Program-made: the position numbers and the translations under genes
Assembly: GCF_900100335.1 (NCBI RefSeq)
Contig: NZ_FNFE01000003.1
Coordinates: 186,001 to 250,000 of the forward strand
Length of the DNA stretch: 64,000 nt
Origin: Natronorubrum texcoconense
GTDB taxonomy: Archaea > Halobacteriota > Halobacteria > Halobacteriales > Natrialbaceae
Direction: 5' to 3'
Shown: positions 35,146 through 40,368 of the stretch, piece after piece
How the letters are laid out: each line of letters begins with the position of its first letter
Position numbering within the stretch: the first letter of the stretch is position 1
The notes under the pieces: model-generated
Told to the model about the DNA's origin: nothing
Database searches by the model: none
Seen by the model: only the letters and a program-made list of their open reading frames with translations

Positions 35146-35478
35146 ATTCGCCCGTTCGGTTCGATTCTCGTATTTTTCGCTGCTCGAGCACTGGCGCTCC
35201 CGATCCAATCGGCGTTCGGGCCGCAGAATCGGATCGGCTCGCGTCCCAGTTCCCGCGGCCAGCGGACCCCATTACGACCTGTAAGCGCTGGTTACTCGGT
35301 AGCCGACCGTAATGTCGTTCGGTTAGATCGCACAACCCGGCGGACCTACTGAAGTAATCCTCTTTCGTTCACGGAATAAACACTAAGTTGTTTCACCGGT
35401 ACGTGTAAGGTCTAATTACTTCGGTGCCATATACCTTGAGTTAATTATATTATCTCCCTCGATCAAGGAACGGTCGCA
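35146..35478. other. Gene-free AT-richer interval upstream of the 44-residue membrane peptide
   Basis: No credible coding sequence is seen. The right-hand end is AT-rich (TAATTATATTATC, 35442-35454), acting as promoter for the small gene at 35479. The rest has no repeats that I can detect. Confidence 0.6.
35442..35454 (+). promoter_or_regulatory. TATA-rich promoter of the small membrane protein gene
   Basis: TAATTATATTATC is centred about 31 bases before the ATG at 35479. It is the strongest AT-box of this neighbourhood. Confidence 0.6.
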
Positions 35479-35613
35479 ATGTCCGAAAGCAAATCCCAGA
35501 TCCGAGCGTTCTTCGCCGAGCATCCCCGACTGATGGGCGTCCTGTTCGCCGCGTGCGTGTTACTCTCACAGGCCGGCACCGCCGTCGCCGGAAACGGTGG
35601 CGGAACGTACTGA
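35479..35613 (+). CDS. 44-residue membrane peptide of the haloarchaeal DUF7503 type
   Basis: The 44-residue product begins MSESKSQIRAFFAEHPRLMG. It has a single hydrophobic helix (GVLFAACVLLSQAGTAVA) and ends GNGGGTY, with a likely cleavage-type AVAG junction. It fits small haloarchaeal proteins filed as DUF7503 (name from memory), a type that often lies near regulator genes. A strong TATA-like box precedes the ATG. It converges on the CHAT-peptidase gene, with its stop 21 bases away from that gene's stop. It may be a signal-like or secreted peptide; function unknown. Confidence 0.7.
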   Translation: MSESKSQIRAFFAEHPRLMGVLFAACVLLSQAGTAVAGNGGGTY

Positions 35614-35634
35614 GAGTCGAAACGAATTTTGTTC

Positions 35635-37722
35635 TTATAACAGCGTGAACCGATCGTCAGTCGACCAGCAGTGTTCACCGTCGAACTCGACCGCGATCTC
35701 CTCGAGTCCTAAAAACCGAGCGAGTGCGTCTCCGGGGAGGTCGATCGGGGGCAGTTCCTTGCCCGCGAGATAGTGTCGATCGATGCCGTCGAGGTAGGGG
35801 ATGTACTGCGCGCCGACGCCGCTGTCGACGTGGTAGAGCTGGACGAAGAGCCGATAACGCTCGTCGTCGATCGACTCGATACGGCAACTGTTCGGAACGA
35901 TGCTCCCGGATTGACCGACGGCCAGCCCACCGTCGCCGACGACGATGTACTGGTTGCCGACGAGTCGGTACGATCGCGCCATCGCGACCGCGGATCGAAG
36001 CGTGAACCCGTTGTTCAGGAGTCGGGCGACGAACTGTCCCACGGCGATCGCGTCCTGATTCCCGACCTCGCTAAGCGTGACGATGCCTCCAACGCCGCCG
36101 CTCTCGATCACTCGCGCTCCGATCTCGTACGAGCGACAGCCGTTGATGAGGAAGGCGTCGACGCCGACGTCCGCGAGCGTACTCGGGTCGAGCGCGCCGT
36201 CGCGACAGACGAACGCGTCGTCCTCGACGTGGCCGACATAGTGGAGGAAGTCGACGTCCGCGGCGAAGAGCCGCCGCAGTTCGTCGCCGCTGACGTCCCG
36301 ATGGACGGTGGCGTCGAAGGGGAGTTCCTCGCGGTCGCCGTACAGCCCGTCGTCGGTCGCCTCGAGTTCGGCGGCCATTCGCTCGTCGTTACAGACGATA
36401 GTTACCTCGACGCCGTCGCCTGAGGGGGTGCCCTCGAGTCCGTTCTCGAAGCCGGCCTGGAGGAGTTTGTTCGCACCGATCGGAACGCCGTCGCCGAGCC
36501 ACGCCCGTTCGAAAGCGTCGACCTCGGGGATCGAGACGTACGAATCGATGCCTCGGTCGACCGACGACTCGCCGCTGCCGGAACGGGGCGTCGATCTGGT
36601 GAACGCCTCGATCTCGCTCGGAATCGTCGGCGGCGTGGCCGGCTCCGGGGTCGCTGGCAGCGACCGAACGCTCGCGAGTTCGTACGCCAGATACGGGAGC
36701 GCGGCCGCGTTCTCGGGAGCCGACGTCGTGTACGTGACCAGCCGCCACCGGGGAACGAGATCCGCGACGGCGTCGAACGGGATCGAGAGCGCGGTGGCGA
36801 GTCGATCGGCCAGCGACTGCTCGTAGAGCTCGTCGAACGCCAATTCGAGGCGGTCCGCGACCTGCTGGCGCTCGTACAGTTCGACCGGATAGAGCCCCTC
36901 CGTTCGGGTCACGCAGTCGATAAAGAAGACGTGCTTGAGAACGCGGTCGACCAGCCCATCGAACGTGTACGCGGAGTGATCCAACGAGTACTCGAAGCCG
37001 CGGTCGGTCTCGACACGCGGCCGACTCCCCGTCTCGACCGTCGCGCCGAGGTAGTAGGCGAGCGGGCAGATCGTATAGAGGGCCGCCCGCTCCGGTGGAA
37101 CGACGATTCTGACGCCGGTGTCGGGGGTCTCGAGCCCGTCGGGAATTCGAACGTCGTCGGCCAGCGCGAGGCGGGGCGGGTGTCCCCGAAACGACGGCAG
37201 CGAGCGTTCGGGACTCGTCGTCTTTAGCGCGGAGCCGAAGGTCGACACGGCACGAGCCAGATCGTTCGGATCGGCGGTCGTCTCGACCGTGGTCGCCGGC
37301 CGTTCGTGGCGCGACCGCGCACCCAGTCGGACGGTCGTCGCCTCGCCGAAGTAAAACGCCAAGCGATCGTCGGACGACGCGATGGTCAACTCGCCGTGGA
37401 CGCGGATGTAGAGTTTGATCGGCGCCATCAACTCGACGAGGTACGTCCCGTCGGGCAGCGTCTCGTAGGCGTAGTGTTCGGCTTCGAGCAGCATCTCTCC
37501 CTCCGGATCGCGAACGTAGGTCGGGACGACGAAGGGGAGGACCAGTCGTTCGGTCGTCACCGCGACGGCAGCGTCGACCGGGAAGGAGAAGTCGTCCGTT
37601 TCGACCGCGGTCGGCGTAACCCGTCCCGACGTCTGAATCGGGCACTGTCGGTTCTCGATCGGGTCGACGACCGTGAGCCCCGGTCTGTCGTCGGCCGGCT
37701 GGAACGTGGGTGTCAGTGTCAT
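35635..37722 (-). CDS. CHAT-domain (caspase-fold) peptidase with haloarchaeal N-terminal region
   Basis: The 695-residue protein has an N-terminal region (about 1-430) of strand-rich sequence with a jelly-roll-like start (VDAAVAVTTERLVLPFVV) and no recognised domain. The C-terminal region (about 440-610) has the CHAT peptidase dyad. The His is in FLHYVGHVEDDAF (H498), the Cys in DAFLINGCRSYEIG (C529), and GGVGGIVTLSEVGNQDAIAV follows as expected. CHAT proteases act in controlled proteolysis, including bacterial immunity and cell death. The HalOD1/KaiC-like gene sits 87 bases upstream on the same strand, so the two are probably one transcript. The domain call rests on motifs, not a search. Confidence 0.8.
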   Translation of the reverse strand: MTLTPTFQPADDRPGLTVVDPIENRQCPIQTSGRVTPTAVETDDFSFPVDAAVAVTTERLVLPFVVPTYVRDPEGEMLLEAEHYAYETLPDGTYLVELMAPIKLYIRVHGELTIASSDDRLAFYFGEATTVRLGARSRHERPATTVETTADPNDLARAVSTFGSALKTTSPERSLPSFRGHPPRLALADDVRIPDGLETPDTGVRIVVPPERAALYTICPLAYYLGATVETGSRPRVETDRGFEYSLDHSAYTFDGLVDRVLKHVFFIDCVTRTEGLYPVELYERQQVADRLELAFDELYEQSLADRLATALSIPFDAVADLVPRWRLVTYTTSAPENAAALPYLAYELASVRSLPATPEPATPPTIPSEIEAFTRSTPRSGSGESSVDRGIDSYVSIPEVDAFERAWLGDGVPIGANKLLQAGFENGLEGTPSGDGVEVTIVCNDERMAAELEATDDGLYGDREELPFDATVHRDVSGDELRRLFAADVDFLHYVGHVEDDAFVCRDGALDPSTLADVGVDAFLINGCRSYEIGARVIESGGVGGIVTLSEVGNQDAIAVGQFVARLLNNGFTLRSAVAMARSYRLVGNQYIVVGDGGLAVGQSGSIVPNSCRIESIDDERYRLFVQLYHVDSGVGAQYIPYLDGIDRHYLAGKELPPIDLPGDALARFLGLEEIAVEFDGEHCWSTDDRFTLL

Positions 37723-37809
37723 TCGTCGAGGATCGTCGTCTCGTCGGCTTCGGATCGTTCGCTCCCGTCGATCAGCGACCGTCGACGGGCCGGTCGGGTC
37801 GTCACGGTG

Positions 37810-39078
37810 CTACCGCGAGTCGCGGAGCGCGAACCAGTCGGTCGTGTAGTTGCTCTCGTGGAGGTGCCAGCGCTGTTCGGCGCCGGACTCCCCGACGCGG
37901 AGTTCGACCGTCGCGTCGAACGACGCCTCGAGTCGCCGGACGGCGTCCGACGACCGCTCGATCGGAAGGACGTAATGTCCCAGCGCCGAGGCCGCTTTGA
38001 CCGACCCGCAGACGGACTCGAGAAACCGCTCGACGACCTCGATGTCTCGGTCTTCGATGATCGGGCGCAACGAGTCGACGCAGAGACGGGTTGTCGCTGG
38101 GCCGGACTCCGTTTCGTCTGCCGTGATCGTTCGGAGCGTCGAATCGATGGCCTCCTCGAGACCGTCGATGTCGTCGGGCTCGGCGACGATACTGGGCGTC
38201 GTATCGGTATCGATGCTGGGTTGGGCGCTCGCGGCAGACCGTGCGGTTGCCGCGTAGTCGACGACGTGTGCGTTTGACGCGTCGCCGGGGGATAACCGCG
38301 TCCAGACGGCGTCGATATCGCGGTCGAGTAAGGCGAAGAGGTGGTGGCGATCGCGCCCCCGGTCGCCCAGGAGTCTGGTGCTCGCGACGTCGACGAGATC
38401 GTCCGGGACGGCACCGACGACCAGCACGTTGCCGCCGACCCGTTTCAGTCGCCTGAGCGTCGAGCCGGCGGCGATCGTTCCGTCCGGTCGCACGACGATG
38501 TCGTATCCGAGCGTCGAGAACGCGACGGTCGCACCCGATCGCGGTACGCCGTTCCGTCGGTGTGCGTTGAGTCGCACGACAGCGTCGAGATCGATGGTGT
38601 CCGCAATCGCCGACCGGACGTACGCCCGATCGTGGTCGGTGTGCACGGCAATCGCCGAGACGATTCGGACCGTTGCGTCGTTCTCGCGGGCGACGTCGAC
38701 GTCGGAGACGTGGGACCAGTCGCCGATCGCCGACGGCTCGTCCGGGTCGGAGAGAGTCACTCGGCCGTCGGCGGTCAGCCGAACGCGCCGGTTCGCATAG
38801 GAAAACGTGACGACCGGCCACGCGCCGCGATTCGATCGCTCGACGCTGTCGAGGAGTGCGTCGAGCGCGTCAGGATCGACGGTCTCGTTCAACTGTGGGA
38901 GTTCCATCGGTGAGACGCCGGTTTCGTCCGCGATCCGTTTCACCACCGCCACACCGGACCGCATCTGCACTCCCCCGTCCATCACTCGGCGACGGGAGAA
39001 TTGGTCCCTCCCGTCCCGAGAGGTATCCTTCGTCATCTGGACCTGCGTAGGCGTGGCGCGTACGAATAGTTCGCGCAT
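37810..39078 (-). CDS. HalOD1 domain fused to a KaiC-like (DUF7504-type) domain
   Basis: The 422-residue protein begins with a HalOD1 output domain (about residues 25-100: VVKRIADETGVSPMELPQLN, then PVVTFSYANRRVRLTADGRV). A central region of about 70 residues follows (about 100-190). The C-terminal part (about 200-415) has a RecA/KaiC-like strand layout, GGNVLVVGAVPDDLVDVAST, LCVDSLRPIIEDRDIEVVERFL (in part LCVDSLRPIIED) and HYVLPIERSS. No Walker A lysine is visible. I chose the ATG at 39078 because a TAATTATC box lies about 30 bases upstream. It precedes the CHAT gene in one direction and is divergent from the winged-helix gene at 39225. Confidence 0.7.
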   Translation of the reverse strand: MRELFVRATPTQVQMTKDTSRDGRDQFSRRRVMDGGVQMRSGVAVVKRIADETGVSPMELPQLNETVDPDALDALLDSVERSNRGAWPVVTFSYANRRVRLTADGRVTLSDPDEPSAIGDWSHVSDVDVARENDATVRIVSAIAVHTDHDRAYVRSAIADTIDLDAVVRLNAHRRNGVPRSGATVAFSTLGYDIVVRPDGTIAAGSTLRRLKRVGGNVLVVGAVPDDLVDVASTRLLGDRGRDRHHLFALLDRDIDAVWTRLSPGDASNAHVVDYAATARSAASAQPSIDTDTTPSIVAEPDDIDGLEEAIDSTLRTITADETESGPATTRLCVDSLRPIIEDRDIEVVERFLESVCGSVKAASALGHYVLPIERSSDAVRRLEASFDATVELRVGESGAEQRWHLHESNYTTDWFALRDSR

Positions 39079-39192
39079 AGTTTCATGGCAGACACACACA
39101 GTGATAATTACAAATCGGACAGAAACACTGTACGTCGTGTCGGCTCGTCTCTCTTCCTTTCGGATACGCCGATCCGGTATTCTCCTAGTACG

Positions 39193-39199
39193 TTTATTG
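39193..39199 (+). promoter_or_regulatory. TATA-like box of the winged-helix gene
   Basis: TTTATTG lies about 29 bases before the ATG at 39225, suggesting a leaderless transcript. Confidence 0.55.
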
Positions 39200-39224
39200 C
39201 CGTCCCGCGACTGGCTACGAATAT

Positions 39225-39674
39225 ATGGTCGATTTCAGCCCGGAGGATACGGGCGGGCGATCCTCGACGCCTGACCGCCGCTTCGACCCCCCAACCCGAT
39301 CCGAACGCGAGTCTCCGATCGACGAGTTGCTCGTCCTCCTCAGTCACCAGCGCCGGCGCGACGTGCTGTACTACCTCAGCGATCACGAGGTCGCCAGCCT
39401 CGAGTCGTTAGCGGCGACGATCGCCGCCAACGAAGCGGGGGTGTCTGCGGAACGAATCTCCGCCGAACGGCGCGAGTCCGTCCTCATCGATCTCTACCAC
39501 AACCACCTGCCGAAACTGACGGATCGAAAGCTGGTCGAGTACGACCACCGGAGCGGGGCGATCAGGTGGTCTTCGCCCCCGGCGCTGTTCGACGAACTCC
39601 TCGAGTGCTGTCACTCCCTGGAGTCGATCGACGGGTCGGCCACGGACGACGAGTCCGAGACGAACGGAACCTGA
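39225..39674 (+). CDS. DUF7344-type winged-helix protein
   Basis: The 149-residue protein has a disordered, Asp/Pro-rich start (about 1-30). A winged-helix region of the haloarchaeal DUF7344 style follows: IDELLVLLSHQRRRDVLYYLS, HEVASLESLAATIAANEAG, RRESVLIDLYHNHLPKLTDR and KLVEYDHRSGAIRW (the wing). The LYHNHLPKLxDxxLVxYD block is characteristic. It is probably a transcription factor. It is divergent from the HalOD1/KaiC-like gene and converges on the KaiC-like gene ending at 39742, so it may regulate both units. Confidence 0.82.
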   Translation: MVDFSPEDTGGRSSTPDRRFDPPTRSERESPIDELLVLLSHQRRRDVLYYLSDHEVASLESLAATIAANEAGVSAERISAERRESVLIDLYHNHLPKLTDRKLVEYDHRSGAIRWSSPPALFDELLECCHSLESIDGSATDDESETNGT

Positions 39675-39741
39675 CGACCGCCGTCGTTGGCCCGCTCGCC
39701 CGGCAGATGCGGGCAAGTGGCACCCAGGCTGTCGGGTTCGG

Positions 39742-40368
39742 TTAGGCGATGTCCCGACTCGTGTCGATCGCCACCTCTTCGGTCAACTCGAGTTTGATCG
39801 CCTCGGTCGGCTGTGCGCCGCCGCGGAACTTGGGGATCGTCAAGTGGTTCTCGAGTTCGCTGCCGGCGGTCTTGGTCCGGAGATCGAAGACCGCGTCGGC
39901 GGCGTGGATCGTCCGCGTCCGCCCGGCGGGTACGTCGTCGCCTTCCAGACAGTGTAATACCGCGATCGAACCGGTCTCGAGCATCTGCGACTTGAGTTCG
40001 TTGAGAAACGTGACGTACTCGTCGGTGTCGGCGTGTTCCAGGACGTCCATCGTGTCGATGATGAGGTTAGCCCCGTCGGGGAGGGCCCCGATGAGACGGG
40101 TCGCCTCCTCGAGCGGGTCGTCGCTGGTGACGTGGCGGACGGTCGGACTGCCGACCTCGGACGGCGAGGCCTCGATCGCGTGACGGACGGCGTCGTCGGA
40201 GCGCTCGGTCGAGAGATACAGGGTGCCGCGGGCGGCCGTGAGTTCGTACAGGAGAAGTTCCGACTGGCTGGCCGGCTGGGCGGTGTACGCGACGATACAC
40301 CCCGGCGGTAACCCGCCGTCGAGTTTCCGATCCAGCACGTCGATCCCGGTATCCAGTCGACCGACCAT
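39742..40368 (-). CDS. KaiC/RecA-like protein with degenerate P-loop (DUF7504-type)
   Basis: The 208-residue protein read from the ATG at 40368 has the KaiC layout: TGIDVLDRKLDGGLPPGCIVAY, a P-loop position occupied by TAQPASQSE, and TLYLSTERSDDAV. LIIDTMDVLEHADTDEYVTFLNELKS (in part ANLIIDTMDVLEH) is the Walker B strand, and the end is ENHLTIPKFRGGAQPTEAIKL. The Walker A lysine of normal KaiC (GxxGSGKT) is missing, so ATP hydrolysis is doubtful. The upstream frame is ignored because AGTTATG (about 40396) gives leaderless spacing. It shares its family style with the C-terminal half of the protein at 37810-39078. Confidence 0.78.
   Translation of the reverse strand: MVGRLDTGIDVLDRKLDGGLPPGCIVAYTAQPASQSELLLYELTAARGTLYLSTERSDDAVRHAIEASPSEVGSPTVRHVTSDDPLEEATRLIGALPDGANLIIDTMDVLEHADTDEYVTFLNELKSQMLETGSIAVLHCLEGDDVPAGRTRTIHAADAVFDLRTKTAGSELENHLTIPKFRGGAQPTEAIKLELTEEVAIDTSRDIA

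Follow-up and report, generated by a model that had tools for sequence, protein, structure and literature searches.

A CHAT-Type Peptidase of Haloarchaea

CHAT proteases (PF12770) act in Craspase, SAVED-CHAT, and gasdermin systems, and the described examples, such as TPR-CHAT/Csx29 of Craspase and SAVED-CHAT, have a clan-CD fold, a His/Cys dyad, and a catalytic region of two subdomains. Here we describe a locus of the haloarchaeon Natronorubrum texcoconense (assembly GCF_900100335.1, contig NZ_FNFE01000003.1, positions 186,001 to 250,000 of the forward strand; this whole stretch of 64,000 nucleotides (nt) is called the window, and coordinates are given within it) that encodes a predicted CHAT-type clan-CD peptidase of 695 amino acids (aa) (35635–37722, minus strand) and, converging on it, a DUF7503 peptide of 44 aa (35479–35613, plus strand). 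An earlier note, made from the sequence alone, had proposed this pair and three neighboring genes as a signal-driven protease module. All five open reading frames (ORFs) lie at the coordinates and spacings that it gave, with the stop of the HalOD1-containing ORF (37810) 87 nt from the start of the CHAT gene and the CHAT and peptide stops 21 nt apart. The haloarchaeal protein shares the fold, dyad, and two-subdomain layout of the known CHAT proteases, but differs from them in its beta-rich N-terminus, in that no TPR or SAVED domain was found, in a locus where no CRISPR or CBASS partners are seen, in its 44-aa peptide partner, and in being a core gene. The label of a SAVED/TPR-CHAT defense system was rejected, as there is neither a supporting domain nor a PADLOC match.

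The window's CHAT protein has no match in Pfam, NCBIfam, or PADLOC, and a sequence search of the PDB with the family profile returned chance matches only; fold and profile–profile comparison were therefore used. When a profile of 67 relatives was aligned by hhalign with that of seven CHAT proteins encoded elsewhere in the phylum, the probability was 95.2 (E = 2.6e-8), and both catalytic residues align. The AlphaFold (AF2) model built from the 67-sequence alignment (predicted local distance difference test, pLDDT, 89.9; predicted template modeling score, pTM, 0.90) matches PDB structures over residues 326–604, which form two alpha/beta subdomains (a first alpha/beta and a catalytic one) as in separase and TPR-CHAT. 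The best matches include gingipain (Z 18.8), SAVED-CHAT (17.1), DdvA (16.9), separase (16.8), and TPR-CHAT (14.4), with caspases, among them caspase-7/8, also near the top (Z about 11). Gingipain and separase (clan CD, families C25 and C50) resemble the window's protein in structure, yet sequence identity is about 10–15%, and the window's protein is an intracellular archaeal one. Outside the matched span, the model contains a beta-rich N-terminal domain (about residues 1–150), a middle region, and a C-terminal beta domain.

Single-sequence Pfam scans of the 67 close relatives point the same way. Weak matches to PF12770, the family hit most often, were found in 17 of them (E up to 0.1, best 7.7e-5), and one member of a divergent branch exceeds the curated PF12770 cut-off. 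A divergent family member also matches Peptidase_C25 (E = 0.0014). The catalytic pair, H498 (codon 36231–36229) and C529 (codon 36138–36136), sits in HxxGH and NxC contexts, is invariant in 67/67 relatives, and is kept in the divergent paralogs too. The assignment to the CHAT clan and the invariance of the dyad, both put forward in the earlier note, thus hold without a direct profile match: judged by its predicted fold and by profile–profile alignment, the window's protein is a clan-CD (CHAT/caspase-fold) peptidase, and it would be expected to have proteolytic activity. The C14 caspase profile (PF00656) matched neither this protein nor any other in its own genome, and a C14 caspase gene was rejected as another source of caspase activity there. 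In clan-CD enzymes the P1 residue is often read where the first strand ends, and those whose S1 pocket is acidic cleave after Arg or Lys. At this place in the CHAT protein, residues 446 and 452 are acidic in 67/67 relatives (D/E446, E/D452).

The family is present in 271 of the 292 sampled Halobacteria genomes, often as paralogs (one to five matches per genome), and is represented in 68 of 77 genera. Outside the class but within the phylum, only four genomes of a single non-haloarchaeal family (G299, G308, G317, and G326) had CHAT relatives, and these are more distant (E 1e-75 to 1e-84). Plasmid-borne members, mostly annotated "hypothetical protein," sit on 25 large haloarchaeal replicons, each of them rated non-mobilizable. 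This distribution is that of a core gene family rather than a mobile defense island. No family match was found in phages and no confirmed relative on viral contigs, so a phage or viral origin was rejected. This caspase-fold family is kept by nearly all haloarchaea, mostly missed by standard profiles, and previously unnamed. In the open-access literature we found no paper linking a CHAT domain with Haloferax volcanii, nothing relevant on haloarchaeal CHAT proteins or orthocaspases, and no paper naming DUF7503, DUF7504, DUF7344, or DUF7125.

A Conserved, Convergent DUF7503 Peptide

Gene neighborhoods were compared in the window and in the 80 loci that match its subfamily best (L043–L122), and the percentages and locus counts given below describe this set of 81. 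DUF7503 was found 73 times, and in 72 cases it is convergent with the CHAT gene. The median stop-to-stop gap is 5.5 nt, the stops often overlap, and the peptide lies within 200 nt of the CHAT gene in 70 of the 81 loci. The count of 72 among 73 comes from a search within CHAT neighborhoods only, and a genome-wide DUF7503 search was used in addition. There, all 35 peptides compared, namely those among the matches listed for genomes G000–G042, are convergent with a CHAT match and no more than 300 nt from it, and CHAT-less genomes were also without the peptide (13/13, among the genomes that both searches listed up to G099). Near-touching convergent pairs that are conserved would be uncommon if no functional link joined their genes, and the tail-to-tail arrangement suggests that CHAT and DUF7503 work as a pair. 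The peptide, to which the earlier note had pointed as a tempting substrate or effector, is accordingly borne out as the prime partner of the CHAT gene.

The pair is also duplicated elsewhere in the N. texcoconense genome, and the locus is far beyond chance because the gene set recurs both in other genomes and as this paralogous copy. The copy (G000:C10:274282–280066, comprising L031, L033, L035, and L041) consists of a DUF7503-CHAT-DUF7504 set and, next to it, another CHAT gene that has diverged. A third CHAT paralog of the same genome (L032, G000:C4:178972–181083) lies about 5 kb to the left of the window and belongs to a deep, peptide-less branch that is likewise widespread. At another locus (L049, 7935–10067, with the next CHAT gene about 2.6 kb on), tandem CHAT genes each have their own convergent DUF7503, and the pair duplicates as a unit.

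A conserved promoter element of its own precedes the peptide gene. Upstream of the 73 peptide genes the A/T fraction rises to 0.99 at −30 and falls to 0.26 at −19, with a strong A/T block from −37 to −28 before the ATG, the place expected for the TATA box of a short-leader haloarchaeal mRNA. In the window, a TATA-box-like element (taattatatt, 35442–35451, plus strand) occupies this place, 28–37 nt before the peptide ATG.

The window's peptide scores 61.5 bits with PF24335, above the cut-off of 27 (E = 5.5e-17). It consists of a conserved leader (residues 11–37) and a variable tail of seven residues (GNGGGTY). In the leader, P16 and K/R17 are found in 73/73 peptides, Q31 in 72/73, G33 is conserved, and positions 35 and 37 (−3/−1) hold small residues in 71/73; residues 18–37 form a hydrophobic core that is almost uncharged. 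The leader is less variable than the tail (mean column entropy 1.1–1.2 against 2.5 bits). Tails are 7–12 residues long and come in 65 distinct forms, 45 of the 73 peptides end in Gly-Pro, and paralogous peptides within one genome differ in their tails. With its basic n-region, uncharged h-region, and small −3/−1 residues, the peptide looks like a cleavable export signal followed by a short variable product, rather than the plain membrane helix that the earlier note had described. An ordinary signal peptide would not usually carry an invariant Pro-Arg/Lys, and this feature suggests that the peptide is specifically recognized.

The Upstream HalOD1-DUF7504 Protein

The gene that precedes the CHAT gene on the same strand (37810–38982, minus strand; a longer ORF, starting at up to 39099, is possible) encodes two HalOD1-type repeats (PF18545) followed by a KaiC/RecA-fold domain, DUF7504 (PF24336). 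An AF2 model of DUF7504 (pLDDT 91.5) matches the KaiC fold with a Z of 16.6 over 178 residues. In contrast to KaiC-like ATPases, DUF7504 has no Walker A motif (GxxxxGK[ST] in 0/43 members), which makes an ATP-driven switch unlikely, and in the window's clade it is fused to HalOD1 domains. In 44–46 of the 81 loci (about 55%), the CHAT gene is immediately preceded, on its own strand, by DUF7504. The tree confines the HalOD1-fused form to the window's clade; in other clades DUF7504 stands alone or no member is recognized. At one locus (L096, 7136–7903) and ten others, an unrelated same-strand ORF of about 240 aa takes the position just upstream of CHAT, perhaps in place of DUF7504.

A HalOD1 protein that has been studied is DdfA, which takes part in the shape and quorum response of Haloferax (PMC10869688, PMC12240190). 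The NCBIfam DdfA model matches only the HalOD1 part of the window's protein, which differs from DdfA in its additional DUF7504 domain and its CHAT neighbor, so that the likeness is one of a shared domain only.

Proposed Function and Alternatives

We hypothesize that the locus encodes a regulated protease–peptide pair found across haloarchaea, in which the CHAT enzyme processes the peptide or is gated by it; we favor this reading tentatively, putting it somewhat below an even chance. The HalOD1/DUF7504 protein, having no Walker A motif, would relay a signal through binding and not through ATP hydrolysis. The DUF7503 leader would direct the peptide to the membrane or the Sec pathway, and the CHAT enzyme would act on this leader or be controlled by it. 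A cut could fall after basic residue 17 ([N/H]P[R/K]), as in the Arg/Lys-specific clan-CD enzymes (gingipains, separase), and the conserved acids 446/452 together with this residue would fit basic-P1 cleavage. The variable tail of 7–12 residues, which follows a signal-peptidase-like AxA, would in that case be the product that is released or displayed. Through this linkage the peptide becomes a candidate substrate or regulator of the CHAT protein, and DUF7503 and DUF7504 gain a first lead to their function.

Several observations weigh against a protease–peptide pair. First, 11 of the 81 CHAT genes have no adjacent peptide, some of them near contig ends, and the divergent paralog branch to which L032 belongs has no DUF7503 peptide. 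Second, the peptide has a promoter of its own that points toward the protease gene, unlike the co-transcribed protease–substrate pairs of bacterial gasdermin and SAVED-CHAT systems. Third, the invariant basic residue 17 could serve membrane topology alone. Finally, proteolysis, cleavage of the peptide, and its export are here computational predictions.

The alternative that survives best, which we nevertheless consider unlikely, is that CHAT is a housekeeping or stress protease responsible for the caspase-like activity of Haloferax, with the peptide as a membrane anchor or inhibitor and not a substrate. Haloferax extracts contain a very strong zVAD-sensitive caspase-like activity (LEVDase/VEIDase/IETDase), described in 2010–2012, for which the genome had no caspase homolog at the time (PMC3615174). 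The near-universal CHAT family would offer a concrete gene candidate for this activity, which was still without a gene in 2012. The family is single-copy in Haloferax, with one copy in the two genomes checked by name and in 14/14 sampled genomes of the genus (by its coordinates, one of the two is sampled genome G076), so that a single-gene test would be available. In H. volcanii, which served as a control genome, DUF7503 and DUF7504 were found and, as in N. texcoconense, there was no C14 caspase match. The specificity fits poorly, since the Haloferax activity shows a preference for Asp at P1 whereas D/E446 and E/D452 may suit a basic P1, and similar activity has been reported in Pyrococcus and Sulfolobus, beyond the known range of the CHAT family. 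A combined version, in which a HalOD1/KaiC-like-controlled caspase-fold protease processes an exported pre-peptide to a short variable product and also explains the orphan haloarchaeal activity, seems to us doubtful.

Equally doubtful is a role in peptide signaling, in which DUF7503 would be an exported pre-peptide with a pheromone-like tail that CHAT matures or senses, as in AgrD/AgrB or Phr systems. The conserved leader with residues that obey the −3/−1 rule, the many distinct tails with their frequent GP ends, and the different tails of paralogs in one genome are what such a system might produce, but plain drift could explain the divergence of the tails, and no receptor has been identified. 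The known density signal of H. volcanii is moreover a small molecule and not a large peptide; it is resistant to proteinase K and is 3 kDa or smaller (PMC12240190), and is therefore not equated with the DUF7503 tail.

Less probable again is the role in defense or programmed death to which the earlier note had inclined, in which a triggered CHAT effector would cut or release a membrane-active toxic peptide. Its attractions are the fold matches to SAVED-CHAT and TPR-CHAT, the part that CHAT proteases play in those systems, and the hydrophobic core of the peptide. A family kept in nearly every sampled genome, with no PADLOC model and neither a phage match nor a confirmed viral relative, does not indicate such a module, and the usual nucleic-acid or cyclic-nucleotide sensors are not encoded in the window's gene set as judged by Pfam. 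An RNA-level link, in which overlapping convergent transcripts make the peptide mRNA an antisense regulator of CHAT expression with no action between the proteins, would suit stops that overlap or lie within a few nt of each other in most loci and the strong promoter element on the peptide side, but it is very improbable, as antisense regulation has no need of a leader whose amino-acid sequence is conserved across families.

Other Neighbors of the Locus

Beyond the protease–peptide pair, the gene set proposed in the earlier note is conserved in part: the HalOD1/KaiC-like gene recurs as described above, and the two remaining genes do so little or not at all. The putative winged-helix regulator, a DUF7344 protein (39225–39674, plus strand, divergent from the HalOD1-DUF7504 gene; PF24035, E = 3.8e-23), is an optional member that stands divergently beside the operon in 16 of the 81 loci, only in the window's clade. 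In L116 (10860–11774), DUF7504 and DUF7344, which are encoded divergently in the window, occur as a natural fusion; this supports a link between the two domains. A generic search for co-neighbors returned mostly out-of-frame shadow ORFs and local synteny and, apart from DUF7504 and DUF7344, no general partner.

The second KaiC-like protein, a DUF7125 protein (39742–40368, minus strand; PF23442 and KaiC PF06745), has no GxxxxGK[ST] motif, in agreement with the missing Walker A lysine noted earlier. It was rejected as a member of the module, since it adjoins CHAT in 1 of the 81 loci, the window itself, where its gene lies beside a pyrB-like gene.

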